41,738 nt of DNA from a virus: positions 1 to 41,738 of IMG/VR virus record IMGVR_UViG_3300037083_000069; one strand, 5' to 3'. This document shows, piece after piece, positions 15,285 through 36,374 of this stretch. A model generated the notes under the pieces. It ran no database searches. It was not told the DNA's origin and was given only the letters and a program-made list of their open reading frames with translations. The translations under genes and the position numbers were made by a program. Numbering within the stretch: the first letter of the stretch is position 1; each line of letters opens with the position of its first letter.

Positions 15285-15312
15285 GCAAATCATCAATCGC
15301 AAATCGCAAATC
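15285..15312 (+). promoter_or_regulatory. Heptad leader of the lipase gene
   Basis: Four 7-base units end exactly at the GTG start: GCAAATC at 15285, 15299 and 15306, with a variant ATCAATC at 15292. There is no Shine-Dalgarno sequence. Confidence 0.65.
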
Positions 15313-16080
15313 GTGAATTTGAACGCCACTAAATTCGACATCGGCAACGCCCGCGCCTGCGGGACGGCGTCCGCGGTGGCGTATCAGGACGCGCCGACCG
15401 TGCGGTGCGACCGCACGGACACGCAGGCGGTGGTGATTGAATTGCCGGACTGCCGGATCGTCGCCTTTCGCGGCACGAGCAATTTGCGCGACTTCATCAC
15501 CGATGCCGAGTTCTGGCGCGAGACGCTGGTGGTAGAGGCGGATGGCGCGGACTGCCAGGTGCATCGCGGTTTTCTCGCCGCCTACGAGAGCATCATCGAG
15601 GAACTGGCGGCGCATCTGCGCGGCCAACCGCAACTGCCGCTCTTTATCACCGGCCATTCGCTCGGCGGCGCGCTGGCCATCCTAGCGGCGCTGGAATTGC
15701 AGCGGCAGAAATTTCCCATCGTGCAGGTCTATACCTTCGGCCAGCCTCGCGTCGGTAACGGCGCGTTTAAGCGGCTTTACGAATGGTCGCTCGGCGCGCA
15801 GACCTTCCGCGTGGTGTTCGAGGAGGACTGCATCGCGCGCATCCCGCACCTCCCGCACTTCACTGATCCCTACCGGCACGCGGCCACCGAGGTCTTGATT
15901 TCATCCGTCACCCGGCAGGCCGTCATTGCGCCGACCGTGGCCGCGCTGCTCTGGTCGGACGCGTGGGGTCTCTGGCGCGCGTATCGCGCCGGGAACGTGC
16001 CGGCGCTGCTGGACGACGCGCTGGCGGATCATCATGTGAACAACTACGTCAACGCCTTTTTGCCGAAAGACAATTTATGA
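15313..16080 (+). CDS. Class 3 lipase-like alpha/beta hydrolase
   Basis: A 255-aa protein with the lipase class 3 pattern: VIAFRGTSN-like strand and oxyanion loop (IVAFRGTSNLRDF, residues 49-61), a VHRGF segment (84-87), the nucleophile elbow GHSLGG at 114-119 (Ser116), FGQPRVGN at 142-149, Asp172 in VFEEDCIARIP and His240/241 in ADHHVNNY. All triad members are present, so it should be active on lipid or other esters. It has no signal peptide. It sits where Mu-like phages carry lysis genes and overlaps the next membrane-protein gene as ATGA, so membrane attack during lysis is a reasonable inference. Confidence 0.88.
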   Translation: MNLNATKFDIGNARACGTASAVAYQDAPTVRCDRTDTQAVVIELPDCRIVAFRGTSNLRDFITDAEFWRETLVVEADGADCQVHRGFLAAYESIIEELAAHLRGQPQLPLFITGHSLGGALAILAALELQRQKFPIVQVYTFGQPRVGNGAFKRLYEWSLGAQTFRVVFEEDCIARIPHLPHFTDPYRHAATEVLISSVTRQAVIAPTVAALLWSDAWGLWRAYRAGNVPALLDDALADHHVNNYVNAFLPKDNL

Positions 16081-16484
16081 TGATTGCTGAAGCAACGAAC
16101 GAATTTGCCGGTCAATGGGTTTTCATCGCCATCGCCGTGGTGGTGGGCATCGCAACCATCCTGGGCGTGGCTGCGTATTTCGCGACATCCCGGGAGCTGA
16201 CCACGGTGGTGGATACGATGGATGCCCTGACTAAAACCATCGCTGAATCAAACCGGATCAACGAAGAGCGCGCGGCGGACATTCACGGCCGGTTGAATCC
16301 CATCGCGGAACTGGTGGCGGAAAACAAGGGCAAGATTGCGGCATTCGAGATGAGCTTTGAAAAATTCACGCGGGTCATTGAGTCAAACGCGCGCGCCAAC
16401 AACGACACCATCCGCGCCTTCACGCAGTCACTCGAAACCTTTGCCCGGGTGCTGGACCAAAATTCACGGAGGGAACACAAATGA
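16077..16484 (+). CDS. Membrane protein with long helical tail, holin candidate
   Basis: A 135-aa protein starting at ATG 16077, overlapping the lipase stop as ATGA; the open frame upstream shadows the lipase. One transmembrane helix lies at residues 14-36 (WVFIAIAVVVGIATILGVAAYF), followed by a heptad-rich, probably coiled-coil domain (VVDTMDALTKTIAESNRINEERA to the end). The topology fits a class III-like holin or a spanin-like protein, but no family match is recognised. Coupling to the lipase gene supports a lysis role. Confidence 0.65.
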   Translation: MMIAEATNEFAGQWVFIAIAVVVGIATILGVAAYFATSRELTTVVDTMDALTKTIAESNRINEERAADIHGRLNPIAELVAENKGKIAAFEMSFEKFTRVIESNARANNDTIRAFTQSLETFARVLDQNSRREHK

Positions 16485-16735
16485 TTACGCGCGCCGAACT
16501 TGAAAAAAACATCTTGCTCGCATTGAACGCGGCGGACGGCGTGCCGATGCCGGAGTCGGCGCTGGTGCGCGGCGTCCAGGTGCTGTCGCGGCCGGACGCG
16601 CCGTCAATTAGCGACGTGCTGGACGCGCTGAAGTTTGTTGAATCCAAAAAATATGCGGACGCGGCCAGCGTGGACTTGGAGGAACGCTCCTGGACCCTGA
16701 CGACCGCCGGCATCCACAAAGCCCGGAAACTCTGA
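16481..16735 (+). CDS. Small winged-helix-like protein before the terminase genes
   Basis: An 84-aa protein with a clear ribosome site (CGGAGGGAACACAA before ATG). The pattern ITRAELEKNILLALNAADGVPMPESALVRGV, a central helical part, then SWTLTTAGIHKARKL looks like a winged helix. Similar small proteins stand at this place (Mu gp26 position) in many Mu-like phages. It may assist packaging or regulate late genes. Confidence 0.7.
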   Translation: MITRAELEKNILLALNAADGVPMPESALVRGVQVLSRPDAPSISDVLDALKFVESKKYADAASVDLEERSWTLTTAGIHKARKL

Positions 16736-16741
16736 TGCGCC

Positions 16742-17317
16742 ATGCCCAAACAAAAGAAATCCAAGCTGGACCAGTATGCGGTGACGCTGCTGGAAATGGA
16801 CGCCGCCAAGAAGACGCTGCCGGAAATCCTCGCCTGGCTGAAGGAAGAAGGCGTTTCCGTCGCGCCGTCCACCTTGTCGGTCTATTTGGAATCTGCGCGT
16901 TCGGCGCGCTTGAAGCAAAAACTTTTGGGGCAGATCACTTCGGGAGCGCGGCAGTGCCGGGAAGTCGAGCAGGAGTTTGCGAAAAATCCCGCGCCGGAAC
17001 TGGAGACGCTGATCAAGCTGCACCGGGTGCTGATCCTTCAGCTCTCGACGCAGGGCAATACCGACCCGGAATTTTTGAAGCTGTCGGACCAGTTGACCAA
17101 CACGGTGTTGAGCTGTCTCAGCGCGCAGACGAAGGCCGCGTTCAAGGAACGGGAAATTTTCCTGAAGGAAACCCAGGCGCTGGAGGCCAAGAAATCCGAA
17201 CAGCAAAAGGCGCTGGAATATTGCCTGGCGGAAGCGAAGGGCACGCCGGCCGAGGAATTATTTACCCAGGCATTTTTAGCCTTGAAGAAAGTCCGTGCCG
17301 GACTGGCCAAAGCATGA
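16742..17317 (+). CDS. DUF3486-like small terminase subunit (Mu gp27 type)
   Basis: A 191-aa helical protein. Residues 1-60 form an HTH-like N-terminus (LLEMDAAKKTLPEILAWLKEEGVSVAPSTLSVYLESAR) as in DUF3486 proteins. The remainder is coiled-coil rich (KAAFKEREIFLKETQALEAKK). In Mu-like phages this subunit recognises the phage end for packaging. The stop overlaps the large subunit's start as ATGA. A longer frame beginning at 16735 in another phase is a shadow over this gene. Confidence 0.82.
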   Translation: MPKQKKSKLDQYAVTLLEMDAAKKTLPEILAWLKEEGVSVAPSTLSVYLESARSARLKQKLLGQITSGARQCREVEQEFAKNPAPELETLIKLHRVLILQLSTQGNTDPEFLKLSDQLTNTVLSCLSAQTKAAFKEREIFLKETQALEAKKSEQQKALEYCLAEAKGTPAEELFTQAFLALKKVRAGLAKA

Positions 17318-19437
17318 AAAAACAACGGGACATTTTGGAGATCGGTGACAGCTCGCTCGGCGCGCTGGGTAAGATGTCCATTCCCGAGATCCGCCACTTC
17401 CGCGATTTTCTGTTGCAGCAGGCTAAGGTGCCGACGTCGGATTTCAAACGCGCGGGTGAGTTCGATCCGTTTTCATTCTTCGGCCGCGAGATCCTTTTTG
17501 AAGCCTGCCGGGTGCTGGATGAGATTCTCGGCAGCGACACGGGTGTGCCGTTGAAGGATTCCACCTTCGCGCTCTGCGGCGGCGCACAGTTCGGCAAGAC
17601 GATCCTTGAGCTCTATCTCGCGGCCTATATCACCTCGCAACGGTTTTTGAACGTGGGCGTCTATCTGCCGGACGATGGCCTGGCCGACGGCATCGTGGAC
17701 ATGAAGTTCCGGCCGGTGGTCCTGGACAACATCGGCTGGCTCGCGCAGATGACACAGATCGGGAAGACGCTCAATAAGTCCGGCAAGAGCGTGAACACCA
17801 AGGGCGCGTTCCTGGTCACGGACGGCAATAAGCGCAAAGCCAGCGGAATGTTTCGCGGCTTGAAAAAAGTCCCCACCACGTTCAGCGCCGACGTGGTGAT
17901 CCGCGACGAGGAGGACGACATCCCGCGCGCGAACGCGAAGTTTCTCTCCGGTCGTATGACCGCCTCGCAGCTCCGGCTGCAGATCGTGGTTGGCACGATG
18001 CGCGTCCACGGCGCGGGCCAGAACAAACAGTTCGAGGCCGGCAGCCAGGGCGTGAAGCTCATCGGTCCTTGCGGACGGCCACCATCGCCAAAGCTCATCA
18101 TTGCACGCTCGGCGGAAACATGCTTCGTGGTTTCAGCGGTGCCGCCGGGCTGGATCAACCCGGAAGAAAATTGGCCGCAGATCTGCCGCGTGCAGTTGGG
18201 CGCGAAGCCGTCGCCGTCCGATCCGCGCCTGACTTACGAGGGCGATTTCCGCCACGCCAATTCCACGGAGGTGGCCGCCGTCTATACGCCGGACGCCCTA
18301 TACTATTATGCGCACCCGGAGACGGGCGCTGAACTCGACGCGCACATGACGGCCGTCCACTACCGGATGCCGGAGCGCATCAAGCAGCGGCGCTGGTCGC
18401 TGCGCGTGGCGCAGATCGGCACGCCGGCGATTGACCTGGCGCAGATCGTTTCCCATTGGACGCGGGCCGTGATGGACGATGAAGAAATGATTTCGTTCTG
18501 CTGCGATCGCAAAGCGATGCCCAAGAGCGCGGCGCAAAGTCTCTCACCACAAATCCTAAACCGCTCGCGCGCGGTGACGCCCTTCAGCTTCGGCACGCTG
18601 ACGCCGGAAAAAATCCGCGTGGCCGGCCTGGACACCGGTGGCCGTTGCTGGCTCTACACCCGCGAGATCCACAGCCCGGCGGAAAAGCGCTGCGTGGCCG
18701 TGGACAAGATCGCGCTGGGCGACATGGTTGCCCGCGTGCGGCTGCTGTGCGAGGCGCGCGGCATCTCGGCGCTGATGATTGACGAGAACCCGGCCGTGGA
18801 CGAGGCGCGCACCCTGGCGCTGATCCTGAACGGCCTCGACACGCTGGCCAACTGGCCGCGCGTGGATTTCAAATCGAAGGACTCCAGCTTTGCCTGCGGT
18901 AAATTATCCTGGGACGGCAGCCGGCAGGAATGGCGCGGACTCAAATGTGCGGTTGTGCGCTTCTCTAAAAAACAACTTGGCATGGGCATCGAGCAGGGTG
19001 CCGTGGAGTTTGACCAGGGCGGCCAGAAAAAGTTTGTCCCCTACATCGCCTGCAACCGGTTTGAATCCATCGACCGCGTGGTGAAGGAATTTTTGACGCC
19101 GTCCGAAAACGTCATCGAAGTGGTGAGCATTGCCGGCAAACGCACCGTCCGCCAGCAACCCGTCATGCGGCTGCCGCTCCGCGCGCCCGGCGCTCCAGGC
19201 ATTCTCGAAACGCTCGACGAGCATCTGCTGACCGGCAGCCAGCGCGCCAAGGAAGAGAAGACCGGCGAGCTGGGCGACTACGTGGACAAATGTGACAACC
19301 ATTTTCTTTTGGCCGACGCTTATAGCGGACTGGCCGAGGTCTGCGGCGTGGGTGGTGGCACCGGGAAATTCGCCTACCAAAAAATCAGCCTGCCGGGTCG
19401 GAACGGCATCGGGCGTTCGAAAGGACTTCTGGGATGA
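17314..19437 (+). CDS. Terminase large subunit
   Basis: A 707-aa protein read from ATG 17314, which overlaps the stop of the small subunit; the frame is open back to 16735, but that part is a shadow. Walker A-like GGAQFGKT is at residues 89-96 and Walker B DVVIRDEED at 193-201. The C-terminal nuclease region includes IRVAGLDTGGRCWLY and LMIDENPAVDEAR, which supply acidic residues. The overall pattern is that of phage packaging ATPases of the GpA-like/Mu gp28-like group. It would cut and pump phage DNA into proheads. A hairpin-motif copy (18065-18083) is embedded in it. Confidence 0.85.
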   Translation: MKKQRDILEIGDSSLGALGKMSIPEIRHFRDFLLQQAKVPTSDFKRAGEFDPFSFFGREILFEACRVLDEILGSDTGVPLKDSTFALCGGAQFGKTILELYLAAYITSQRFLNVGVYLPDDGLADGIVDMKFRPVVLDNIGWLAQMTQIGKTLNKSGKSVNTKGAFLVTDGNKRKASGMFRGLKKVPTTFSADVVIRDEEDDIPRANAKFLSGRMTASQLRLQIVVGTMRVHGAGQNKQFEAGSQGVKLIGPCGRPPSPKLIIARSAETCFVVSAVPPGWINPEENWPQICRVQLGAKPSPSDPRLTYEGDFRHANSTEVAAVYTPDALYYYAHPETGAELDAHMTAVHYRMPERIKQRRWSLRVAQIGTPAIDLAQIVSHWTRAVMDDEEMISFCCDRKAMPKSAAQSLSPQILNRSRAVTPFSFGTLTPEKIRVAGLDTGGRCWLYTREIHSPAEKRCVAVDKIALGDMVARVRLLCEARGISALMIDENPAVDEARTLALILNGLDTLANWPRVDFKSKDSSFACGKLSWDGSRQEWRGLKCAVVRFSKKQLGMGIEQGAVEFDQGGQKKFVPYIACNRFESIDRVVKEFLTPSENVIEVVSIAGKRTVRQQPVMRLPLRAPGAPGILETLDEHLLTGSQRAKEEKTGELGDYVDKCDNHFLLADAYSGLAEVCGVGGGTGKFAYQKISLPGRNGIGRSKGLLG
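18065..18083 (+). repeat. Dispersed hairpin motif inside the terminase gene
   Basis: GTCC-TTGC-GGAC followed by GGCCACC. This is a coding copy with the TTGC loop form. It matches the copy at 11747-11765 except for one compensated base pair. Confidence 0.5.
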
Positions 19438-19589
19438 GTAACTGCGTTACAGCCACCATTTTTCCCGCGCCTTGGGATGGCCCAGGCGGCGTTTTGGCCG
19501 TGTTGACCCGCCCTGGGGGGCATCACGCGCCCAGCGGGGCAGCTAACGGCCAGCTAATGGCCTTTAAGAAGGGGGTTAGCCATGCGTAA
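19434..19589 (+). CDS. Possible 51-aa ORF between terminase and portal
   Basis: ATG 19434 overlaps the terminase stop as ATGA; the frame reads MSNCVTATIFPAPWDGPGG and stops at 19587-19589, just inside the portal gene. The junctions fit coupled translation, and the interval has no other content. The product is Gly/Pro/Ala-rich and unrecognised. Its first codons are a copy of the hairpin motif (19438-19457), so it may be a linker rather than a real protein. Confidence 0.35.
   Translation: MSNCVTATIFPAPWDGPGGVLAVLTRPGGHHAPSGAANGQLMAFKKGVSHA
19438..19457 (+). repeat. Dispersed hairpin motif after the terminase stop
   Basis: GTAAC-TGC-GTTAC followed by AGCCACC. Compared with the copy at 15260, the central G-C pair is replaced by A-T on both arms, a compensatory change. 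Confidence 0.6.
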
Positions 19590-21459
19590 ATCCGCCAAAA
19601 AGGGTGGGGTGAAATCCATTGGCCTCGAAGCCCGGCTCGCCGCGGTGGTTTCCGGCTTCCAAAAATTGTCCGGCAAGGATCAGCGCCGGTTCGCGAATGC
19701 CGTCTCCAACGAGTTTCCGACCAACCCCAAGCTCGGCAACTCCTCGCGCCAGTCGCGCGGCGCGGATCAGGTGCCGGCCACCAGCCAGTTCGGCAAGCCA
19801 AGTCCCGACCAGGAGGATTATTTCCGGCAGCCGCGCGATCGCGCTGGCCAATATAAGAATGCGCCGGACGCCAGCATCACGCCGGCGCGCGTCACGCTCT
19901 CGGTGCGGATGCGCAACAATCCGATCAAGGGCCTGACCTTTGAGCGCCTCGTCACGGCGCTGGACCAGTGGCGGCTCGGTTTCTTCCGCACGGCTGGCAT
20001 GGCGTGGGACACGATGGAGCGCCGCGACTACCAGCTCCAGATCTGCCGGCCCAAGCGGATGAAGAGCGTCGCGCGCCATGGCTATGACATCCTGATCCGC
20101 GACGACGTGGACGATTCGCAGAAAGCCCTGGCGCAGCAGCAAAAGGATTTCCTCGACAATTTTTACGCCAACGTCTCCGCCACGACCGCGCTGAACCCGG
20201 ATGAGGAGGGCGGCTTCTCGCTGCTGGTCCGGCAGATGATGGACGCGGTCGGCAAATACTATGCCGTCCACGAGATCGTCTGGCAGCCCATGGCGGCCGA
20301 TGACGCAGTTGAAGGTGGCGAGCTGACGGCGAAATTCATCTTCTGTCCCATCTGGTGGTTTGAGGGCACGCGCGGGAAGCTACGTTTCCTGCCCAGTGAA
20401 TTTCAGATCTACGGCAACGAGATGATGCCAGGCGAATGGCTGGTGACCTGCGGCGACGGCATCATGGAGGCGTGCAGCGTCGTCTATCTGATGAAGTCGC
20501 TGGTGCTGAAATCCGGCCTGGCGTATCTCGACAAGTTCGGGATGCCGGGCATTCACGGCAAGACGGACGCGGTCAAGGATTCACCGGAATGGAATGATTT
20601 TGTGATGGCGGTGGAGGACTTCGCGCAGGAATGGAGCGCGGTGACTAACCGCAACGCCGACCTCTCGCTCGTCGAGGCCAAGGCCAGTGGCGAGGCCGGC
20701 TTTGAAAAGTTCCTGGCCATCTTTGACCGCTCCATCACCCAGCTCTGGCGCGGCGCAGATCTAGGCACGACTAGCAGCCAGCGTGGCGCGGGCGCATCCT
20801 TGCAGGAAGACGAGTCGGAAATTCTGGAGACCGACGACGCGAAGCTGCTGGAGGAAACCCTCGACAGCAAGGTCACGAAGTTTGCGCTCGCGTGGAAATT
20901 TGGCCCGGACACGGAACGCCTGGCCTATGTCAAGCTGCGCACCACGCCGCGCCGGAACATCCAGGACGACATCGCCGTGGACACCTTCCTCGCCGGCTTC
21001 AAGGATTCCGAGGGCAAGACGATTCTCGGCACGGCGGAAACACTGGAGCGCTATTCGCGGTCGCTGCCCAAGCCGGGCGAGGACACGCTCACGGCCACGC
21101 CGCCGCCGGCCGCGCCCGGAGCCGGCGGTCCCAGTGGCGAGAAAGTCATTCCGCCCGGCAAGACGGATGCGAATCCCGAATTTGCCAATGCGAACCCGCT
21201 GGATGAAAAAAGCCACGCGCTCGTCGTCGAGGCGGTGCTGTCCGAGTTTGGCTCCATCAACAAACGCCTGGCGGCCGTGGCGGAAATAACCGACGCGGCG
21301 GTGCAGAAACAAAAGCTCACCGCGATCCTCGCCGACCTGGACAAGTTGAAAAAAAATCTCGACCACGATCCGGCCGTGGCCAACGCCATCTACAAAATCC
21401 TGTCGGCGAACCTCGCCAACGGCATCGCCGGGCAGCGTGACGCTGCACCCCAATCATGA
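19582..21459 (+). CDS. Portal protein, DUF935 (Mu gp29 type)
   Basis: A 625-aa protein. The core, residues about 100-500, has the DUF935 pattern (ARVTLSVRMRNNPIKGLTFERLV, KYYAVHEIVWQPM, GIMEACSVVYLMKSLVLKSGLAYLDKFGMP, WRGADLGTTSSQ). The portal forms the dodecameric DNA gate of the capsid. It has a Shine-Dalgarno (AGAAGGGGGTTAGCC before ATG). Unusual features are two Phe-Ala-Asn motifs, FANA at 37-40 and FANA at 534-537. The second separates a Pro/Gly linker from a C-terminal coiled coil of about 88 residues, which could be a removable scaffold-like tail. The stop overlaps the protease start as ATGA. Confidence 0.88.
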   Translation: MRKSAKKGGVKSIGLEARLAAVVSGFQKLSGKDQRRFANAVSNEFPTNPKLGNSSRQSRGADQVPATSQFGKPSPDQEDYFRQPRDRAGQYKNAPDASITPARVTLSVRMRNNPIKGLTFERLVTALDQWRLGFFRTAGMAWDTMERRDYQLQICRPKRMKSVARHGYDILIRDDVDDSQKALAQQQKDFLDNFYANVSATTALNPDEEGGFSLLVRQMMDAVGKYYAVHEIVWQPMAADDAVEGGELTAKFIFCPIWWFEGTRGKLRFLPSEFQIYGNEMMPGEWLVTCGDGIMEACSVVYLMKSLVLKSGLAYLDKFGMPGIHGKTDAVKDSPEWNDFVMAVEDFAQEWSAVTNRNADLSLVEAKASGEAGFEKFLAIFDRSITQLWRGADLGTTSSQRGAGASLQEDESEILETDDAKLLEETLDSKVTKFALAWKFGPDTERLAYVKLRTTPRRNIQDDIAVDTFLAGFKDSEGKTILGTAETLERYSRSLPKPGEDTLTATPPPAAPGAGGPSGEKVIPPGKTDANPEFANANPLDEKSHALVVEAVLSEFGSINKRLAAVAEITDAAVQKQKLTAILADLDKLKKNLDHDPAVANAIYKILSANLANGIAGQRDAAPQS

Positions 21460-23931: not shown

Positions 23932-25140
23932 ATGAAAAAGAACATTAAATTGACGGCGGCGCTGGCCCTGGCCGGCGCCCTGCCTTCCTTCGGTAAAATC
24001 ACCCTGCCGCAGTTCGCGAACGAGATTGATTCGCAGGCTCCGATCGTCGGTCAGGATCGCGGCCAGGGCTATCGCGCCGGCCAGGTGCTGTTCGCCAACG
24101 ACGGCAGCTACCATCCCGGCCATTACGATGAACGCCTGTCCGGCTTCATGAACACGAACCCGCGGCTCGCGGCGATCTTCGCCAACGATTCGCAGTTCAT
24201 GGAAACCTACTACAGCGAGCCGCTGACCAACTTCTCCACCGGCTGGCGCGATCCGAACGACATTGAAGCCACGCTTCAATTCTTCGCGCCCGCTGTCCCG
24301 GTTGGCCGCCGCTTCGAGTGGAAGGCGCCGAACAACGCCGAGGAGTTCATGTCCGAACTCGTGGACGACCAGCGCGCGATCGGCGCGGACTTCAAGTCTG
24401 TGAAATACACCGGCACGGATGTGAACGACAAGACGTTGAACCGCGGTCTCACGATCATCGTGGATCTGGACAACGTGTCCGACACCGGCATCGGTGCCGG
24501 TCAGGTGCCCGGCTGGCAGCAGAACGCGGTGGCCAAGCTCACGCGCCGGCTTTACCGCAACAGCTACCGCCGCGCGCTCGCGGCGATCGCGGCGGCGGCC
24601 GTGCCAAACAACCTGGTCTGGGCCCCGCAGCCGGTGAACGCCGGCGTGATCCCGGTGAACCCGGACATGGACGTCGTCGCCGACCTCGTGGCGCAGACGA
24701 ACATCACCGGCATCCGCAACAACCGCGTCGCCTATGGCGACACGGCCGCGCTCTACCGCCAGCAGGCGTATGGCGCGCAGAACAACCCGGCCGGCTATCT
24801 CGGCTACGGCACGGACCCGGAAGCCGCCCTGGCGGCCGCGCTCGGCGTGGACAAGGTCTATGTCAGCCGCGAACGCTATACCACCGGCGCGAACGCCAAG
24901 GGCGAAATCCTCGGCGCGAAGGTTTATTCCTTCTTCGCGCAGGACAACGTGGACACGGAAGACCCGTCCAACATCAAGCGCTTTGTCTCGACCTTCGACG
25001 GCGAGCAGGGCGGCGGCCTGTTCCGGGTGTATGTCCAGCAGATCAGCTCCAAGCTCGTCGCCATCACGGTCGAGTTCTACGAGAAGATCGTCATCACCTA
25101 CGCCGGCGGCATCCGCCAGTTGAACATCGCGAACCAATAA
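23932..25140 (+). CDS. Major capsid protein with signal-like propeptide
   Basis: A 402-aa protein in the major head position after protease, scaffold and decoration genes. It starts with a charged and hydrophobic segment (MKKNIKLTAALALAGALPSF) unusual for a capsid. FANE at 28-31, FAND at 54-57 and FAND at 83-86 all lie in the first 86 residues. The remaining 316 residues are a typical globular capsid subunit (VGRRFEWKAPNNAEEFMSELVDD, LTRRLYRNSYRRALAAIAAAA, the late VYVQQISSKLVAITVEFYEKIVITYAGGIRQL). Removal of an N-terminal propeptide by the head protease is known for other phages. The 86-residue arm with three motif copies fits that. Confidence 0.82.
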   Translation: MKKNIKLTAALALAGALPSFGKITLPQFANEIDSQAPIVGQDRGQGYRAGQVLFANDGSYHPGHYDERLSGFMNTNPRLAAIFANDSQFMETYYSEPLTNFSTGWRDPNDIEATLQFFAPAVPVGRRFEWKAPNNAEEFMSELVDDQRAIGADFKSVKYTGTDVNDKTLNRGLTIIVDLDNVSDTGIGAGQVPGWQQNAVAKLTRRLYRNSYRRALAAIAAAAVPNNLVWAPQPVNAGVIPVNPDMDVVADLVAQTNITGIRNNRVAYGDTAALYRQQAYGAQNNPAGYLGYGTDPEAALAAALGVDKVYVSRERYTTGANAKGEILGAKVYSFFAQDNVDTEDPSNIKRFVSTFDGEQGGGLFRVYVQQISSKLVAITVEFYEKIVITYAGGIRQLNIANQ

Positions 25141-25166
25141 CCCACTGCGTGAGGGCCACCGGGCGA
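25138..25166 (+). repeat. 29-bp direct repeat, left copy
   Basis: Begins at the TAA stop of the capsid gene and matches 25724-25752, which begins at the TAA of the next gene, with one difference (A at 25152, G at 25738). The two copies bracket a single gene for a secreted protein. The repeat contains the hairpin motif CCCAC-TGC-GTGAG followed by GGCCACC. Confidence 0.85.
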
Positions 25167-25184
25167 AAAGAAAACCCGGTGGCC
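25154..25184 (+). other. 10-bp perfect hairpin after the capsid gene
   Basis: GGCCACCGGG pairs with CCCGGTGGCC around an 11-base A-rich loop. No T-run follows, so it is more likely an RNA-stability or processing element, or a weak terminator, than a canonical terminator. It could set the capsid message level. Confidence 0.6.
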
Positions 25185-25191
25185 TGATCGC

Positions 25192-25219
25192 AAAACCAAA
25201 ACATCAAATTAAAACGACC
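25192..25219 (+). promoter_or_regulatory. Heptad leader before the secreted-protein gene
   Basis: AAAACCA, AAACATC, AAATTAA and AACGACC abut ATG 25220. All begin with AA. There is no Shine-Dalgarno. Confidence 0.6.
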
Positions 25220-28771: not shown

Positions 28772-28806
28772 AACATTCAACATTCAACATTCAACACTGA
28801 AAAAAT
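28772..28806 (+). promoter_or_regulatory. Heptad leader of the 52-aa gene
   Basis: AACATTC three times in tandem, then AACACTG and AAAAAAT, exactly abutting ATG 28807. This is the most regular array in the window, with no Shine-Dalgarno. Confidence 0.7.
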
Positions 28807-28965
28807 ATGTTCACCAAAGATAAAATTGAAGCCATTGACCACAAGAATCCGCCGAAGCCGCACACGCCGGAAGCGCTCGCCAAGCTGAACGCCGATCAGG
28901 CCGCGAAGGACGCCGCCGCCAAACCGGTTCCCCCGGTGGCCGTGACGCCGTCACCGAAGCCCTGA
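28807..28965 (+). CDS. 52-aa charged tail-region protein
   Basis: MFTKDKIEAIDHKNPPKP and onward: Lys/Ala/Pro-rich, probably extended or disordered, ending in VAVTPSPKP. A strong heptad leader ends at its ATG, which argues that it is translated. The 3' end contains an inverted copy of the hairpin motif (28935-28954). It lies between the tail tube gene and a secreted repeat protein. The function is unknown. Confidence 0.6.
   Translation: MFTKDKIEAIDHKNPPKPHTPEALAKLNADQAAKDAAAKPVPPVAVTPSPKP
28935..28954 (-). repeat. Dispersed hairpin motif, inverted copy
   Basis: On the minus strand GTGAC-GGC-GTCAC is followed by GGCCACC. The loop differs (GGC). It lies in the last codons of the 52-aa gene. 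Confidence 0.45.
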
Positions 28966-29017: not shown

Positions 29018-29818
29018 ATGAAATTATCTCGTTCCTTTTTTCTTGGCGCCCTGGGCGTCTTGGTGGCTGGCTCCGCCCTCGCGCAGTTCGGCACCAACTA
29101 TCCCATGAGCATCACCGCCAACACCGCCTTTGGGACGAACGCGCCGGGCAGCTTGACGGCCTCCAACCGTTTTGGGACGAACGCGCTGGGCTGGTTGACG
29201 GCCTCGAATTATTTTGGGACGAACGCGCCGGGCAGCCTGACGGCCTCCAACCGTTTTGGGACGAACGCGCCGGGCTGGCTGACGGCCAGCAATTCATTTG
29301 GCACGAACGCGCCCGGCTGGCTGATGGCCTCAAATTCTTTCGGCACCAATGCACCGGGATTTTTGACGGCCAGCAATTCTTTCGGCACGAATCATCCCGG
29401 CAGTCTGACGGCCACGAATGTGTTTGGCACGAACGCGCCCGGCAGCCTCACCGCCAGCAACACCTTCTCCGGTGGGGCGCAGCGCGTTGGGGTTGTCAGC
29501 ACTAACTGGGTGACGATCACTAATTCTAGCACTAATTATTTGGTGCTTGCGGGGAATACTTACGGCGCGGGCGATTACTATGCGAGCAACAGTCTTTATT
29601 ACGGCACGAACGGCTTTAGTTTTTCCTTCAACGGCGTGGCCGGCGGTATCTGGATAGTGGTGAATCCGTCGGGCCAAGCGGTTTATTCGAAGTATCAGCA
29701 GACAGATCCAACCGGCGAATATGGCGACAACGGCTGGGGAACGTGTGTGGTGTCGAATGGCACAGGCACATTTCTCTGGAACGCCACCACTCAAATCATC
29801 ACCACCAACTATCCCTAA
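29018..29818 (+). CDS. Signal-peptide protein with 14-residue repeats
   Basis: A 266-aa protein. Residues 1-22 are a signal peptide (MKLSRSFFLGALGVLVAGSA, cleavage after LAQ). Residues 23-150 hold one divergent and eight clear copies of a 14-residue repeat with consensus xFGTNAPGSLTASN. Position 9 of the repeat alternates among Ser, Trp and Phe. The C-terminal 110 residues are Asn/Tyr/Gly-rich (TYGAGDYYASNSLYYGTNGFSFSFNG), probably a beta-rich surface domain. A gene for an exported protein between the tail tube and chaperone genes is unexpected. It may be a tail decoration or adhesion protein, or a passenger gene. Confidence 0.72.
   Translation: MKLSRSFFLGALGVLVAGSALAQFGTNYPMSITANTAFGTNAPGSLTASNRFGTNALGWLTASNYFGTNAPGSLTASNRFGTNAPGWLTASNSFGTNAPGWLMASNSFGTNAPGFLTASNSFGTNHPGSLTATNVFGTNAPGSLTASNTFSGGAQRVGVVSTNWVTITNSSTNYLVLAGNTYGAGDYYASNSLYYGTNGFSFSFNGVAGGIWIVVNPSGQAVYSKYQQTDPTGEYGDNGWGTCVVSNGTGTFLWNATTQIITTNYP
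29072..29470 (+). repeat. 42-bp coding tandem repeat, about nine copies
   Basis: The unit encodes xFGTNAPGSLTASN. The copies differ by several silent and amino-acid changes, unlike the nearly identical 27-bp array at 4983-5426, so this array is older or under different selection. Confidence 0.85.
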
Positions 29819-29824
29819 AAAATT

Positions 29825-30274: not shown

Positions 30275-30444
30275 ACCGTGAGCTGGTCGTGGCGCAGTCC
30301 CTGGAGTGGCTGCAACTGGTGGCGGAGGCCAAGGGCCGGCAGCGCGCGGTGGAGCTGCTGGACAATAGTTACGCCGCCCGCGCCGGGCAGGCCACTGAAA
30401 ACGGGTTCAAGGAATTTATCAGCGCCCTGAAAAATAAATTATAA
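30202..30444 (+). CDS. Tail assembly chaperone, -1 frame extension
   Basis: The -1 frame reads AGETKPVSLADAVARICAATG, then LDRELVVAQSLEWLQLVAEA and ends FKEFISALKNKL, a good helical domain with no start codon of its own nearby. A slip on the GGGG at 30202-30205 (0-frame GGG to -1 GGG) or at CAA-AAC (30215-30220) would join it to the upstream frame. The joined product would be about 205 aa. Confidence 0.65.
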   Translation, partial: GAGETKPVSLADAVARICAATGTLDRELVVAQSLEWLQLVAEAKGRQRAVELLDNSYAARAGQATENGFKEFISALKNKL

Positions 30445-30445
30445 A

Positions 30446-32860
30446 ATGAGCGAACCGGTTAAAATAATCGTGACCGCCGAGACCGCGCAGGCGGCGGCGG
30501 ATCTCGCGCGGTTTGTCTCCCAGGCCGGCAGCGGCCTGCGCTCGCTCGCGCCGGCGGCGGCAGCATCAGGCGAAGCGCTTCAGAAAATGCGCGAATCCTC
30601 ACTGCTTTTACGCGAGGGAATGCACGGGGTTGAATTGGGCGCGATGTCGCTGGCGGGAACCAAGCTGCCCGCACTGGCGGAAGCTATTATGGGTCTGCGC
30701 CTGGCGATCAATGGCACACGCACGGGGGCGATGCTGTTTGGCCTGACACTTTCGGAAATGTTGCTACCCATCGCGGGCATCGCAGCGGCCCTGGGCGGCG
30801 GCTGGCTGTTGTGGGAAGGTTATGGCAACCACATGGAGAGCGCGGAGACCAAGGCGAAAAATCTGGCGGCGGCGCTGGAGAAACTGCCGGACATCCTAAA
30901 GCAAATCAGCGCGGCCCAGGCGGGCGGACTGATTGGCGATCAGCAGGCGAAAAAGTGGCAGGATATGTTGAGCGGTGCCACACCACTCTATCGCAACTCC
31001 GGTTCAATGGGTGGACAGGACTTAACAACCGATCCCAACATCCGCAACTCGCGCACGGGTGGTGTCATCGGCACGCGTGACGAGGCGAGCCAGGATGAGA
31101 AACAGAAGTATGTCGAACAACAGATTTTGATGGCTGGCCTGAACAAGACGCAGAGCGACGCCGCGCAGCAGTTGAAAGAGATTCACGATCAGGACGCCGC
31201 CGAATCGCTGGCCGGGGTGCAAAAGAAGATTGCCGCTGAACAGGATCGTTTCCAAAAGGAGATGGAGCATATCCGTGAGCTGCATGACACGGCGGTTGCG
31301 GCCGGTGGCAAGGATGATTCCGGCGCGGCCCAGGCCGCGCTAGACCGGCACAACGCCACCATTGACGAAATCAACCAGAAGGCGGCATTGGAAAAAGTGA
31401 CGGCGGAAAAGAAGGCGCAGGCGGAATTGGATAAGCAGATATTGGACTTTCAGAAAGAGATCGAGGCGTTCATAAAAAAGAACGTCGAGGAGGAAACGCG
31501 GCTCACGGAAGAAAAAAGAAAACAGACGGCGGAGGCGTTGAAACAGTTGGAACTTCAGCAGGCGATTGCGCGCAGCCAGACCGAGGCGCAATTAAAACAA
31601 ATCCGTGAAAACCCGTTTCTGAATAATTACGACAAGGGGCAGGCATCCATCGGGCCGATCCAAACGCTCATGTCGCAGAACGATCAGAGCATGACGAGCC
31701 TGGCGGACACCGCCAACCAGCCCGGCGTGGACGAGACGGCCCGGCTGGAGGCGATGCAGAAAATCAACCAGCTCATGGCGCAGCAGGTGGATTTGCAGCA
31801 TCAACTGGCCGAGGCGCAGGACGCGGACAGTTTTAATTATCAGCTCGGCCAGACCATCGTGCGGCTACAGAACATCGGCACGCTGGCGCAGCAAAGCGCG
31901 CAGGCCTTCGCGGCGGTGTGGCAGACCGCCACCAATAGCATCACAAAAAACATTTCCGGCCTGGTGGACGGCACCGAGAAATGGGGGCAGGCCATGCGGA
32001 GCATCTACAACTCCATCGTGGAGGAGATCGTCCAGCAGATCGTCCACATGGCGGTGCAATGGGCCTTGCAGCACACAATCATGGCGGCCATCAGCTCCAT
32101 CTTTAATGTGCAGGAGGCCGCCAAGGCGGCGGCGAGCCAGGCCACCATCGTCACCATCACCGGCACCGGCGCCGCGCAGCGCATCGTGATCCGCACCGCC
32201 GAGGCCGCGCACGACGCGACGATGACCGCCACGCAGGTGGCCGCACATGCGACGGGGGAAGGGGCCAAGACCACCTCCACCATGCTGGGATCTTTGATGC
32301 GTGGCATTATCCGCCTGACGGAAACGGTGTATCACAACATTCTGGTGGTGGCGCGCACGTCGGCGCATGTTTTGGGTGAAATTTTGAGCACGGCCGCCAC
32401 GCTGGCGCAGGCCACGATCCGCGCGATCGCGTGGGGCATCAGCGCGATCATCGGCGCGATTTCCGCCATGGCCAGCATTCCTTATGTCGGGCCAATCCTG
32501 GCCGTGGCGGCGGCGGCGGCGATGGCCGCGCTGGTGGCCGGCGAGATGGGCGCGTTTGAAGCCGGCGGTTACACCGGCGACGGGCCCAGCAACCAGCCGG
32601 CCGGCATCGTGCATCGCGGTGAATATGTTTTCCCGGCGTCGGCGGTGGACCGCATTGGCTTGGGCACACTGGCGGCGCTGCACCAAGGCGGCAGTGCTTC
32701 CGCCGGGGCGGCGCTGGGCGGCGGCGGCGCGGCGGGCAAAGGTGTCTCCGTCTATTCCTTCACCGATCCGCGCCAGATGGCTGATCACCTCCAGAAAAAT
32801 GATGACCATGAAAAATGGGTGGTGGACGTGATGAGCCGCCACATCCACAAATTCCGCTGA
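30446..32860 (+). CDS. Tail tape measure protein
   Basis: An 804-aa protein, the usual place and form for a tape measure. It has a helical N-terminus, hydrophobic segments at about 88-125 (LGLTLSEMLLPIAGIAAALGG region), a long Gln/Glu/Lys-rich coiled coil (about 200-470), and a hydrophobic region at about 640-700 (AIAWGISAIIGAISAMASIPYVGPILAVAAAAAMAALVAGEMGAFEAGGYTG) typical of tape measures. The C-terminal GIVHRGEYVFPASAVDRIG is also characteristic. It sets tail length and is ejected at infection. Hairpin motif copy f overlaps its stop. Confidence 0.88.
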   Translation: MSEPVKIIVTAETAQAAADLARFVSQAGSGLRSLAPAAAASGEALQKMRESSLLLREGMHGVELGAMSLAGTKLPALAEAIMGLRLAINGTRTGAMLFGLTLSEMLLPIAGIAAALGGGWLLWEGYGNHMESAETKAKNLAAALEKLPDILKQISAAQAGGLIGDQQAKKWQDMLSGATPLYRNSGSMGGQDLTTDPNIRNSRTGGVIGTRDEASQDEKQKYVEQQILMAGLNKTQSDAAQQLKEIHDQDAAESLAGVQKKIAAEQDRFQKEMEHIRELHDTAVAAGGKDDSGAAQAALDRHNATIDEINQKAALEKVTAEKKAQAELDKQILDFQKEIEAFIKKNVEEETRLTEEKRKQTAEALKQLELQQAIARSQTEAQLKQIRENPFLNNYDKGQASIGPIQTLMSQNDQSMTSLADTANQPGVDETARLEAMQKINQLMAQQVDLQHQLAEAQDADSFNYQLGQTIVRLQNIGTLAQQSAQAFAAVWQTATNSITKNISGLVDGTEKWGQAMRSIYNSIVEEIVQQIVHMAVQWALQHTIMAAISSIFNVQEAAKAAASQATIVTITGTGAAQRIVIRTAEAAHDATMTATQVAAHATGEGAKTTSTMLGSLMRGIIRLTETVYHNILVVARTSAHVLGEILSTAATLAQATIRAIAWGISAIIGAISAMASIPYVGPILAVAAAAAMAALVAGEMGAFEAGGYTGDGPSNQPAGIVHRGEYVFPASAVDRIGLGTLAALHQGGSASAGAALGGGGAAGKGVSVYSFTDPRQMADHLQKNDDHEKWVVDVMSRHIHKFR

Positions 32861-32876
32861 CTGCGTCAGTGCCACC
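32857..32876 (+). repeat. Dispersed hairpin motif between tape measure and next gene
   Basis: CTGAC-TGC-GTCAG followed by TGCCACC and then directly ATG 32877. The tape measure stop TGA is inside the left arm. The outer pair is C-G here, against G-C at 15260. Confidence 0.6.
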
Positions 32877-33071
32877 ATGAAAACTGATTTTGAATCCACC
32901 CTCGCGATCGTGCGCGAACTTTCGGAAAATGCCACGCTCCGGCCGGCCGCGAACAAACCACGCTGCGTTCCGCTGCGGGCGTATGCCGCGCCGCCGGCGC
33001 CGCCGGTGTGGAAGTTCAACCGCGACCTGCTCATCTCGTCACTCGCCACTTGTCACCCGTCACTGGCATGA
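32877..33071 (+). CDS. 64-aa hypothetical tail-region protein
   Basis: MKTDFESTLAIVRELSENATLR and onward, a small protein with a Pro/Ala-rich centre (AYAAPPAPPVWKFNRDLL). The last dozen codons coincide with the heptad array that leads the next gene, so its true C-terminus may be set by that leader. It overlaps the next start as ATGA. The function is unknown. Confidence 0.55.
   Translation: MKTDFESTLAIVRELSENATLRPAANKPRCVPLRAYAAPPAPPVWKFNRDLLISSLATCHPSLA
33040..33067 (+). promoter_or_regulatory. Heptad leader of the 671-aa tail gene
   Basis: CACTCGC, CACTTGT, CACCCGT and CACTGGC abut ATG 33068. All four units begin with CAC. The array lies inside the end of the preceding small gene. Confidence 0.65.
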
Positions 33072-35083
33072 TTCCCGTCAGCTTCAACGCGACCACCGCT
33101 TACCTGCTCGATGACGTGCCGGATTGGAACACGGCGGTCAGCCTCGAGGCCAGCCTGCCGGCGAGCTACGAGCGCGGGCTGTCCGGCCGCGAGACGCGGC
33201 GGCCCACCGGCGACACGCTGCGGCTCACCTGTAGTTACTCGGCCACGCTGGCCTCGCTGACCGCAATTACCAATCTGCGGAACTCGCTCCAGGCGATTTC
33301 CCAGGAATTTGTTTTGTGCCCGTTCTGGCCGGCGGGCTTCATCGCCGGCGGCACGCCGCCGGTCACGGCCGCGTTCTACGCGACGTTTAATGCGGACGGC
33401 AGTTTTAATTCCGTGCAGCCTGCCTCCGCGCTGCCCTTCGCGCTGTTCGCCTATCCGCTAATGGTCGGGATTTTGTCCGAGATCCCTGATCCGCAGATGC
33501 TGGCCGGCGGGGCGCAGACGGTGGCCTACAAGTTTGCCGACAACGGAAATTATCCGCTCACGCCGGCGGCGTTCATCGCGCCGAATGGTTTGGTGGCGGC
33601 CGGCGGCCTGCGGCCGCTCTTCCCGTTCGTGCCGGACTGGTCCACGCTGCCCAACTCCGGCGCGAGCGAAGTGGATCTGACGCGTCAGCCGCTCGGTAGT
33701 CTGCGCACGCTCGCCACGGCTTACTACGCGCAGCGCGGCCGCCGCACGGTCAAACAGTCCTTCACCCTGCGCGATAATTATCCGTTCCATCTACTCGCGT
33801 TCTTTGCCGCCATGGGCGGCGAGCAAAATAATTTCTGGCTGGGCGCGGCGCTGACGGAATGCAACCTGGCCGTGAACCTCGGCGCGGCGGACGGCACGCT
33901 GACCGTGGACAACGGCGCGGCGTTGGGGACCAACGCATACATATTGGTGGGCGACGGCATCAACCGCGTGCCCTTGGCCGTCAGCAGCGTGGCGGGCAAT
34001 GTGTGGACGCTCGCGGCCGCGCCGGGCACGGCCTTCAACGTGGGCATGGCCACCATCGAGTCCATGGTGCTTGCGCGGTTTGACACCCTCAAGCTGACGT
34101 TGAAATTCAGTTCGCCGATCCTGGCCGACTGTAAAATCCAGTTCAAGGAACTGCCCTGGGAGACGAACGCGGTGGCGGGCGAGACTTACGGCACCACGAT
34201 GGGCGCGCTGCCGGTCACGGCGAGCTTCTTTCAATTCACGCTGACCAATCCGGCGGGCGCAACGACTTGGTATTTTTGCAGCTACGAACGGAATTTATCC
34301 GACGGCGTGAACCTCTGGCTTTCCGCGCCGATGGAGTTTGACACCATCACGGACACCGCCGATCTGAAGCGCACGGCGACGACGTTGAAAAGCCGGAACT
34401 TTGCCGGCAACCCGCTCGCGCTCCTGTTCCCGCTCGCGCTGGAGTGGCCGCTCATGCTCCAGATTTTTGAGGGCGACATCAATCCGGCGGCCAGCAGCGT
34501 TTCCAATCTGCGCTGCTATTTTTACGGCGAAGTCGGCGGCACCAAGGTGGCGCCGCCATTCATCACCGCCGATTGTGCGACGCTCTCGCACATTTTCGAC
34601 CGGCAGTTGCCGCGCCGGCAATATCAGGTGACGGACAACTGGTGCCTGTTTGAGCCGGCCAACAAGCTGCTGCCGGCGAACTGGCAATGGAACGCCGTGG
34701 CCGTGAGTTATGACGCGCCGACCGGCACGCTGATGGGGGGCACCCTGACCAGCCCCAACGCGGCCGTGCTCGCGGCGCATTATTTTGCGGCGGGTTATCT
34801 TATCATCACCGCCGCCGCCACCGGCGCGCAGCAGGTGCGGATGATCGCCGACAGCCTCGCCATCGTCGCCGGGCAGATCACCCTGTATCTCGCCACGGCG
34901 CTGGCCGTGGCGCCGGCCGCCGGCGACGTGGTCGCGCTTTATCCGGGCTATGACGGTCAGGCGGTCACCGCCCAAACCAAGTTCAACAATTATCAGCAGA
35001 ACTTCGGCGGCTTCCCGTTCATGCCGGTGGGAAATCCGACCGTGCTGCGGATCACCCAACCCACCGGCGGCGGCAAAAAGTAA
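33068..35083 (+). CDS. Large tail protein, distal tail or baseplate-like
   Basis: A 671-aa protein read from ATG 33068 (MIPVSFNATTAYLLDDVPDW); the 20 codons upstream in frame overlap the previous gene and the heptad array and look non-native. It is beta-rich, with aromatic and Asn/Thr-rich strands (GETYGTTMGALPVTASFFQFTLTNPAGATTWYFC). Its place between the tape measure and tip genes fits a distal tail or baseplate protein. No specific family is recognised. Confidence 0.7.
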   Translation: MIPVSFNATTAYLLDDVPDWNTAVSLEASLPASYERGLSGRETRRPTGDTLRLTCSYSATLASLTAITNLRNSLQAISQEFVLCPFWPAGFIAGGTPPVTAAFYATFNADGSFNSVQPASALPFALFAYPLMVGILSEIPDPQMLAGGAQTVAYKFADNGNYPLTPAAFIAPNGLVAAGGLRPLFPFVPDWSTLPNSGASEVDLTRQPLGSLRTLATAYYAQRGRRTVKQSFTLRDNYPFHLLAFFAAMGGEQNNFWLGAALTECNLAVNLGAADGTLTVDNGAALGTNAYILVGDGINRVPLAVSSVAGNVWTLAAAPGTAFNVGMATIESMVLARFDTLKLTLKFSSPILADCKIQFKELPWETNAVAGETYGTTMGALPVTASFFQFTLTNPAGATTWYFCSYERNLSDGVNLWLSAPMEFDTITDTADLKRTATTLKSRNFAGNPLALLFPLALEWPLMLQIFEGDINPAASSVSNLRCYFYGEVGGTKVAPPFITADCATLSHIFDRQLPRRQYQVTDNWCLFEPANKLLPANWQWNAVAVSYDAPTGTLMGGTLTSPNAAVLAAHYFAAGYLIITAAATGAQQVRMIADSLAIVAGQITLYLATALAVAPAAGDVVALYPGYDGQAVTAQTKFNNYQQNFGGFPFMPVGNPTVLRITQPTGGGKK

Positions 35084-35104
35084 GCGCGTCACGGCCATTA
35101 TTTT

Positions 35105-35593
35105 ATGAAAACCAAAACCATCCTAAAAAAAATCCTCCTCGCGGCCGCCCTTTCGCTGGCGTCGCTCGCGGGCGCGGTCGACTGGACCAACTATCCCGTC
35201 GGCGTGCCGCAGCCGGGCGACACGTTTCTGTTTGGTGCGCTGGGCACCAATCAGTTTGGCTGCCCAACCAACGGCCAGATCGCCGCGACCAATCTGGGGG
35301 CGTGGCTCGCGAACAATCCAGCGTCATCGCGCGTGGTGAATCCGCTCGCCAGCGGCGTGAACTACACGTCGCCGCCGATCCCCGGCTGGCTCATGGTGAA
35401 CGTGATCTACACCAACAGCAGCGCGGCGCGGATCACCAACCTGACCACCGCCGCGTCGCAGACCTTGGGCGCGATCAACGCCCTGGGCACAAACTACGAA
35501 TCGGTTTATGTGCGGACGGCGTCCAACAACATCGTCCTGTTCACCAATGTGGCCGGCGTCGTGCCGATCCAATCCAGCTCGTGGCAGCCGTGA
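35105..35593 (+). CDS. Signal-peptide protein in the tail-tip cluster
   Basis: A 162-aa protein. Its signal peptide is MKTKTILKKILLAAALSLAS, with cleavage after AGA. The mature chain is Asn/Thr/Ser-rich (TNYPVGVPQPGDTFLFGALGTNQFGCPTNG, VNVIYTNSSAARITNLTTAAS). It is unrecognised. It overlaps the next secreted-protein gene as GTGA, so the two are probably made together. A degenerate hairpin motif copy (CGCGTCACGGCCAT) lies in the gap before it. Confidence 0.66.
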   Translation: MKTKTILKKILLAAALSLASLAGAVDWTNYPVGVPQPGDTFLFGALGTNQFGCPTNGQIAATNLGAWLANNPASSRVVNPLASGVNYTSPPIPGWLMVNVIYTNSSAARITNLTTAASQTLGAINALGTNYESVYVRTASNNIVLFTNVAGVVPIQSSSWQP

Positions 35594-35877
35594 GAACTTT
35601 TTATTTAATCCTGTGTCTCTCGCTCCCCAGCCTGGGGTCGGCGCAGCGCGGGGTCGGCACGCGCGCAGCCGTTGCGTTGCCGCTGGCCTACCCCACCCTG
35701 ACGTTGGCGTGGCAGCCCAATCCGGCAGCCTTTGTCACCGTGATTGTTTCCTCGACCAACCTGCTGCTCCCGGTGGAGTCGTGGCCGGTGCGCGCGGTGG
35801 TTTTTAATGACCTCACGAATTCGGTCACACTAACCATGACCAACCAATGGGAATTTTTCCGCGCTTACAGCCAATGA
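35590..35877 (+). CDS. Small signal-peptide protein, 95 aa
   Basis: Starts at GTG 35590, overlapping the upstream stop. The N-terminus MRTFYLILCLSLPSLGSAQR is a signal peptide. The mature part of about 75 residues is beta-rich (LTLAWQPNPAAFVTVIVSSTNLLLPVESW). The frame upstream of GTG shadows the previous gene. It overlaps the NlpC/P60 gene as ATGA. The function is unknown. Confidence 0.6.
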   Translation: MRTFYLILCLSLPSLGSAQRGVGTRAAVALPLAYPTLTLAWQPNPAAFVTVIVSSTNLLLPVESWPVRAVVFNDLTNSVTLTMTNQWEFFRAYSQ

Positions 35878-36353
35878 AACCTTTTTTTAACCATCCCGAA
35901 AAAATTGCGCGCCTGCAGGTGCACGCGCTGGCGTGGCTGGGCACGCCGTTCATGCCCAACGCGGCGATCAAGGGCCGGGGCGTGAGCTGCCAGATGCTCG
36001 CCGGCGCGATCTATCGCGAGCTGGGCGTGCTGCCCGCCGGTTACGAGATTGCGACCGGGCCAATGGATTGGAGCCATGCCCAAACCGAAAGCCGGCTGGC
36101 CCAGGCCGTCGCCGATTTGCCGCAGTTCGCGTCCGTGCCGTGGCCGGCCCGGCCCGGCGATCTGCTGGGCATCCAGCTCGGCGGTTGCATTCACCATTGC
36201 GGCGTCGTGCTGGGGGTGGATGGCAAATTTATCCACTGCTTGCGCGGCGCGGGTGTGGTCTTGAGCAGCGTGCGCGACGCGAGCTATCTAAAGCGCATCA
36301 AAAAAATCTGGCGGCCCGTCTTGGCGGATGCGGCCCCCGCTCGCAACCCCTAA
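35874..36353 (+). CDS. NlpC/P60-type peptidase, tail-tip cell-wall hydrolase
   Basis: A 159-aa protein read from ATG 35874 (MKPFFNHPEKIARLQVHALAWLG). The catalytic Cys39 lies in GVSCQMLAGAIYRE, His108 in CIHHCGVVLG and a possible third residue His121 in KFIHCL; PWPARPGDLLGI is the usual strand before the His. This is the lambda K-type component of siphophage tail tips, which opens peptidoglycan during infection. An earlier in-frame start at 35847 overlaps the upstream gene more and is less likely. Confidence 0.85.
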   Translation: MKPFFNHPEKIARLQVHALAWLGTPFMPNAAIKGRGVSCQMLAGAIYRELGVLPAGYEIATGPMDWSHAQTESRLAQAVADLPQFASVPWPARPGDLLGIQLGGCIHHCGVVLGVDGKFIHCLRGAGVVLSSVRDASYLKRIKKIWRPVLADAAPARNP

Positions 36354-36374
36354 CTCTTAACTCATAACTTTTAT
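36347..36374 (+). promoter_or_regulatory. Heptad leader of the 63-aa gene
   Basis: CCCCTAA, CTCTTAA, CTCATAA and CTTTTAT abut ATG 36375. Each begins with C, and three end in TAA; the first overlaps the stop of the NlpC/P60 gene. Confidence 0.6.

Follow-up and report, generated by a model that had tools for sequence, protein, structure and literature searches.

The window analysed here is the whole of IMG/VR record IMGVR_UViG_3300037083_000069, a 41.7-kb viral contig (41,738 nt) from a Mu-like transposable siphophage of Verrucomicrobiota, in which several genes are preceded by tandem arrays of 7-base units. In this phage lineage the arrays keep a period of 7 and occur in many different units. 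They are enriched over host chromosomes and random viruses, show a bias towards gene starts together with a strand bias, and turn over between relatives. The arrays are probably short-lived 7-bp tandem repeats, that is, heptanucleotide microsatellites, arising by duplication or slippage with a 7-nt step and subject to a selective filter on the start side. The data lend no support to a dedicated initiation device with a fixed phase.

Period-7 arrays in the window and its relatives

A first-pass annotation of the window had described 7-base repeats ending at GTG 15313 and at ATG 28807, 33068 and 36375, and Tandem Repeats Finder (TRF), the leader letters and lag-7 shuffles bore this out. We scored the lag-7 self-match over the last 35 nt of each leader against 2000 shuffles and compared lags 4 to 12. 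Lag 7 was extreme at 15313 (p = 0.001) and at 28807, 33068 and 36375 (22, 18 and 19 matches out of 28, respectively; 0/2000 shuffles each), and none of the other lags was extreme in these four leaders. With imperfect units included, the leader of 15313 reads GCAAATC ATCAATC GCAAATC GCAAATC and reaches the GTG. A fifth TRF array (Table 1), an addition to the earlier list, stops 30 nt ahead of ATG 36627 and is followed by a G-rich tract resembling a Shine-Dalgarno (SD) site. The contrast in SD sites that had been drawn also stood: there was none at 15313, 28807, 33068 or 36375, and SD sites were present at 7269, 8289, 13609 and 16481. The looser leaders that had been assigned to the same period turned out to be merely A/C-rich (22877, p = 0.12; 23932, p = 0.21; 25220, p = 0.49; 22113, p = 0.16). 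Nor was the proposed use for strongly expressed genes supported, as the major capsid leader at 23932 lacks a significant period 7 and two of the four array genes encode proteins of 52 and 63 amino acids (aa) with no assigned role.

Outside the window, the survey covered three sets: 929 kb from 39 related phages and prophages (28 phage records, 11 prophage loci), 1.23 Mb from ∼29 Verrucomicrobiota genomes, and 537 kb from 62 random IMG/VR viral contigs picked by an arbitrary 15-mer. Genes were called with a conservative home-made hexamer model, which on phage B3 found 19 of 45 annotated genes, 14 of these 19 with the annotated start. An array leader was defined as one with a period-7 array in its last 50 nt, ending ≤25 nt from the start. 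Such leaders preceded 54 of 837 starts in the phage set, 3 of 777 in the chromosomes and none of 388 in the random viruses, or 64.5, 3.9 and 0 per 1000 starts. Periods other than 7 reached 0–8 per 1000 starts in the phage set, the harmonic 14 excepted. The autocorrelation check proposed with the first-pass annotation thus revealed an excess in related phages (z = 19.9 at lag 7, with harmonics at 14 (8.6) and 21 (5.0) and far lower values at neighbouring lags), compared with −1.7 in chromosomes and −1.0 in random viruses at lag 7. Over all DNA, the phage set had 13.0 arrays per 100 kb, the chromosomes 3.6 and the random viruses 0.2.

Arrays had a median of 3.9 units and a maximum of 5.6, and spanned about 27 nt. 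In phage spacers, exact lag-7 runs of 6–7 bases numbered 109 versus 34 expected, runs of 8–9 bases 16 versus 4, runs of 10–13 bases 26 versus 0.4, and runs of at least 14 bases 14 versus 0. The excess thus starts at two-copy duplications, where it is threefold, and rises with length. For periods 5, 8, 10, 11 and 13, short runs were near expectation and long runs far below those of period 7. In this over-representation of the 7-nt unit relative to other unit lengths, the arrays resemble the heptameric intergenic simple sequence repeats (SSRs) of Xanthomonas and Nostoc.

Prophages could be compared with the other contigs of their metagenome-assembled genomes (MAGs). Array densities per 100 kb were 91.6 in prophage L029 versus 7.6 in its host contigs, 22.6 versus 2.0 for L023, and 17.9 versus 0 for L031; prophage L022 had no array, yet its host has 15. 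From these densities we conclude that the heptamer trait is mainly a phage property, patchy, and present in a weaker form in some hosts. A property of the host genome alone is ruled out for L029, L023 and L031. The hosts of G002, G009 and G074 carry arrays of their own. On Verrucomicrobiota host contigs we also observed long or inverted heptamer arrays (L067, 4465–4575 and 11279–11432; L105, 12819–14178; L109, 18630–18751), of up to ∼17 units, often at gene ends and in hairpin-like pairs. Mu-type replication was considered as the cause and rejected: phages Mu, B3 and D3112 contain no period-7 array, and the viral contigs L233, L237 and L234, which have no recognisable relative of the window terminase, carry many, these three being a biased sample because they were retrieved through one repeat unit.

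Unit turnover, placement and leader properties

The 121 arrays of the phage set comprise 83 distinct canonical units, so that variation of the unit under a constant period of 7, first noted in the window, is a property of the phage lineage. In 595 pairs of orthologous leaders, both members had an array in 27 cases, compared with 21.1 ± 4.9 by permutation (p = 0.14), and the unit differed in 26 of these 27, the rate found for unrelated leaders. Neither the unit nor the presence of an array is detectably conserved at orthologous leaders, which speaks against a conserved device. The closest relative of the window has no scored array at 28807, 33068 or 36375. At homologous junctions with flanks 75–90% identical, 13 comparisons showed a different unit, 5 the same unit and 16 no array, some of the comparisons being reciprocal. 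Upstream of ATGAAACCACC, the unit is CCTGAAA in L249, AAGCACT in G090 and AAATCCG in L029. The 33068 leader is of CACTCGC type in the window and carries AAGGCTG in G091, and the near relative L014 has just AAATCGTAAATCGAAA, which falls short of the scoring threshold. The units at the 36375 junction are TAACTCT (window), TTCATCC (L019) and ACCCTCA (G091); in L014 this junction is tight (...CCAATGCT|ATG), with GGAGG present and the array absent. At 36627 we found TCCGCAC in the window, CTTTAGC in G091, TCATCCC in L019 and no array in L014.

Arrays in spacers lay mostly between co-directional genes (74, versus 7 in divergent spacers), and only 33 of the 121 lay inside called genes, although called genes make up ∼83% of the DNA. 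Co-directional intergenic placement and depletion from coding sequence are likewise properties of heptameric intergenic SSRs. Among the 74, 31 arrays end ≤14 nt from a start versus 19.6 expected from random placement, a ∼1.6-fold enrichment, and 26 begin ≤14 nt from a stop versus 19.6 expected. When gene calls were left aside, an ATG opening an open reading frame (ORF) of at least 60 aa followed within 30 nt after 67 of the 121 arrays, compared with ∼32 expected. The arrays are thus not restricted to starts: gene ends carry them too, in some cases as inverted pairs with strong hairpin folds. The claim of an exact phase to the start codon failed as well. Across the 54 array leaders, the distance from array end to start ranges from 0 to 25 nt, and their mod-7 composition (χ2 = 83.6) did not differ from random rotation (mean 67.6, p = 0.23). 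For a single array, 'exact phase' is empty, since every tandem array extending up to a start can be divided into units of which the last finishes at it.

Leaders with arrays differ from others in the SD-like motifs they contain (11% versus 24% of comparable leaders, p = 0.04), in predicted folding (median minimum free energy −2.25 versus −6.65 kcal/mol, p = 2e-5) and in G content (12.0% versus 18.3% in SD-free leaders without arrays, p = 5e-5). Composition explains most of this weak structure, the difference from shuffles being +0.3 kcal/mol. In 30 of 33 start-proximal arrays, C exceeds G on the sense strand; the stop-proximal phage arrays split into 16 with C > G and 13 with G > C (difference p = 0.011; the host sample is too small for this comparison). 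The earlier proposal of a translation-initiation device agrees with the start association, the scarcity of SD sites, the weaker structure and the lower G content, and is at odds with the lack of phase and of conservation at orthologues. Two further candidates were rejected: provision of stop codons in all frames, which a 7-mer with one stop would give, as a stop is present in only 24 of the 54 arrays, and G-quadruplex (G4) units, as GGG occurs in few units.

Inverted pairs of arrays around a short middle were found in L029, G098 and several hosts. In L029, positions 7225–7345 fold at −53.8 kcal/mol (z = −6.3) and positions 11930–12050 at −50.3 kcal/mol (z = −5.3). Pairs of similar units were inverted in 7 cases and direct in 2 in hosts, and inverted in 5 and direct in 6 in phages, so that inverted pairs are unsupported as a general phage architecture. 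The arrays of the window are single, no inverted partner array being seen beside them, and comparison with shuffles gave no clear excess of structure for its four array leaders (z −1.2 to +0.4). Separately, a perfect hairpin (GGCCACCGGG...CCCGGTGGCC) lies at 25140–25219 of the window, between the major capsid gene and 25220. L014, G095 and L004 have a different hairpin at the same site after the capsid gene that looks equally strong, which suggests that structure may be conserved there without conservation of sequence. A second hairpin of similar kind lies ahead of 25784.

The phage carried by the window

The window encodes MuA-, MuB- and Gam-like proteins (MuB and Gam clear, the MuA match weak), which identifies it as a transposable phage of Verrucomicrobiota, and its gene layout is like that of the B3 type of transposable phage (Table 1). 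Relatives of its TerL were found in MAGs of Opitutaceae, Akkermansiaceae and other Verrucomicrobiota and in IMG/VR contigs, with one exception on a contig labelled Moraxellaceae; a search of the named-phage collection with the TerL gave no match. The start of the esterase gene is uncertain: our gene finder favours TTG 15319, and the PHROG esterase profile aligns from near GTG 15313. The 63-aa ORF matched no PHROG family. Repeats of other lengths occur within three genes. The DUF7666 gene (4771–5814) contains a 27-bp coding repeat at 4983–5425 (16.4 copies, 96% identical), gene 29018–29818 contains 42-bp coding repeats at 29129–29443 (∼7.5 copies, FGTNAPGSLTASN-type peptide), and gene 39530–41521 contains an 18-bp repeat at 41292–41367 (4.2 perfect copies).

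Table 1. Heptamer arrays and annotated genes of the window
Feature	Position	Strand	Basis
Mu Gam	5840–6400	minus	PF07352, E=1e-8
MuB-like transposition ATPase	7300–8289	minus	PHROG 296, E=9e-26
MuA-like transposase, weak match	8750–10759	minus	PHROG 310, E=6e-4
Heptamer array (AATCGCA)2.7	15295–15313	plus	TRF; lag-7 p=0.001
Esterase/lipase-like gene, start GTG 15313 uncertain	15313–16080	plus	PHROG 21992, E=2e-22
TerL	from 16735	plus	
Portal	from 19582	plus	
Scaffold-like gene	from 23224	plus	
Heptamer array (AACATTC)3.6, then AACACTG AAAAAAT to ATG 28807	28772–28796	plus	TRF, 100% match
52-aa ORF 3' of AACATTC array	28807–28965	plus	ORF list; L014 homologue, 74% identity
Tape measure	from 30446	plus	
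Imperfect array CACTCGC CACTTGT CACCCGT CACTGGC to ATG 33068	33035–33064	plus	TRF, 73% match, 4.3 copies
Tail assembly gene 3' of third array	33068–35083	plus	PHROG 778, E=8e-26
Tail genes	from 33068 and 36627	plus	
Imperfect array (TAACTCT)3.3 to ATG 36375	36351–36373	plus	TRF
63-aa ORF 3' of fourth array	36375–36566	plus	ORF list; homologues, 72–92% identity
Fifth array (TCCGCAC)2.7	36578–36596	plus	TRF, 100% match

Origin of the arrays and known heptamer systems

In the explanation that we favour, a tandem-duplication or slippage process with a 7-nt step would be unusually active in these Verrucomicrobiota phages. Any seven bases in a gene spacer could be copied two to five times; substitutions would then erode the copies, and later an array of another unit would arise at that place or elsewhere. 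As 7 is not divisible by 3, arrays would mostly be tolerated between genes, and many would fall into ribosome-binding regions because phage spacers are short. There, a filter would retain units with little G on the mRNA strand, and a G-poor leader, staying weakly structured, may start translation without an SD site. Arrays close to starts contain little G, have few SD sites and are weakly structured, which makes selective filtering for usable leaders likely. Step-wise birth predicts an excess of simple two-copy duplications, and the excess of such 7-base duplications in the spacers matches this prediction, so that the arrays appear to be young products of 7-nt tandem duplication that are soon lost again. 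The specificity for period 7, the shortness of the arrays, their enrichment in the phage lineage and over host DNA in three prophages, the turnover of units and the association with starts also speak for this explanation.

Several observations weigh against such an origin. The reason for a step of 7, and for more arrays in phages than in hosts, is unexplained, Mu-like replication alone being insufficient. Like L022, prophages L024 and L025 have no arrays. Near-identical records, among which phase-variable (contingency) SSRs would be expected to vary in copy number, share identical arrays and copy numbers, a very small sample and probably the same strains, and give no direct sign of active slippage; renewal of a given array by slippage, as proposed by the first-pass annotation, was accordingly not seen, and turnover proceeds with new units instead. 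Units are shared by 22% of pairs within a record versus 2.7% between records, so some arrays have spread as copies and did not arise independently. Arrays also keep to a narrow range of sizes, with 5.6 units as the upper limit, which could be the result of selection on length. In G098, the spacers at 6634–6725 and 12519–12611 share a whole cassette of inverted heptamer arms around a conserved middle, which looks like a duplication of the entire spacer, so dispersal within a genome also happens.

The arrays could instead be a selected initiation device, namely single-stranded stretches that serve as standby or landing sites for the 30S ribosome, ribosomal protein S1 or a cold-shock/OB-fold (oligonucleotide/oligosaccharide-binding) protein, with one 7-nt unit per domain and little sequence preference, so that the period is selected and the sequence is not. 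The start association, SD depletion, weak structure, low G content and array size of ∼27 nt fit this proposal, as does the OB-fold protein CspB, for which one protein per heptamer repeat has been cited in the similar TAACTGA case (PMC4679880). We nonetheless regard it as unlikely, given that the arrays keep no phase to the start, show a modest start enrichment, owe the weak structure of their leaders mostly to composition, occur at stops and in hairpins as well, and are not retained at orthologous genes as such a device predicts. Slightly less probable still is a phage-selected initiation element that keeps repeat length and not sequence, in which the ribosome or an OB-fold protein (S1 or one of the cold-shock type) would read any G-poor heptamer array in 7-nt steps, leaving the unit free to turn over.

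We also doubt that the arrays are arms of intergenic hairpins acting as terminators, insulators or RNA-stability elements, with the single arrays of the window as remnants or one-armed versions. The inverted pairs in L029, G098 and the hosts, the preponderance of inverted pairs in hosts and the strong folds in L029 point in this direction, and inverted heptameric repeats with a start/stop strand rule are known from Xanthomonas (Rehm et al., PMC4692102); against it stand the even split of phage pairs and the unremarkable, partnerless leaders of the window. A role as recombination linkers, marking junctions where modules are joined and offering short homology for mosaic exchange, seems very improbable. 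The 36375 junction does carry an extra spacer and array in the window where L014 is tight with GGAGG, whole spacer cassettes are duplicated in G098 (6634 and 12519), and units are shared within records, but the unit at a given junction differs from phage to phage and so offers no common homology, and junctions 33068, 36375 and 36627 lie within the tail module between neighbours that are homologous on both sides. Chance, whereby low-complexity A/C-rich leaders look periodic, holds for the four looser leaders of the window and is hardly credible beyond them: for the strict arrays, the excess over shuffled and random-virus controls is greater than tenfold, which refutes it for these.

We know of no accepted cause for the over-representation of heptanucleotides in bacterial genomes. 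In these phages, new arrays of many units come and go at known gene junctions, a compact system in which birth rate, the 7-nt step and any effect on initiation are measurable; if the arrays prove functional, period alone would define this regulatory element.

The first-pass annotation knew of no described mechanism predicting variable units with a fixed period. As far as the period goes, precedents exist. Heptamers are the dominant class of 5–11-nt SSRs in most genomes surveyed, and a polymerase-linked slippage length of 7 has been suggested (Mrazek et al. 2007, as cited in PMC4679880 and PMC4692102); for such repeats, binding of cold-shock proteins, one per heptamer and with weak sequence preference, has been proposed (PMC4679880). 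That survey was genome-wide and concerned long arrays, mainly in other phyla, and the passages citing it mention neither start association nor unit turnover at orthologues. The other part of the statement stood, as we found no described system that keeps repeat length without sequence. A literature search for heptamer repeats in Verrucomicrobia, which left most subscription journals outside its reach, found no paper.

The closest described cases each differ from the phage arrays. The G-rich heptameric repeats GGGAATC of Xanthomonas and GGGGA(T/C)T of Nostoc (Rehm et al. 2015, PMC4692102) are likewise 7-nt tandem units between aligned ORFs, with inverted pairs and under-representation in coding sequence. 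Their strand rule puts the G-rich strand antisense ≤50 bp upstream of an ORF and sense after stops; the bias seen here is similar at starts and weak at stops. However, each of those genomes has one fixed G4-forming unit on a cellular chromosome, whereas the phages have 83 units, mostly without a GGG run and differing at orthologous sites. The TAACTGA direct repeats of marine Beggiatoaceae (MacGregor 2015, PMC4679880) already provide heptamers that overlap ribosome-binding sites lacking an SD, and the phage arrays resemble them in ending 0–25 nt from the start with an SD-like motif in 11%. There, a single unit recurs in a bacterial genome and not in a phage lineage, and related heptamers are rarely or never repeated; the phage arrays have no such single unit. 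The start-associated sequences (SAS) and extended start-associated sequences (ESAS) of Cluster K mycobacteriophages (Pope et al. 2011, PMC3203893) are also short sequences directly upstream of phage starts, about half of them with inverted repeats, but they share one conserved 13-bp consensus, and ESAS are kept at homologous genes, whereas heptamer arrays keep neither unit nor presence. As far as the literature covered here shows, what is new is the combination of many units, phage carriers and complete turnover at orthologous junctions.

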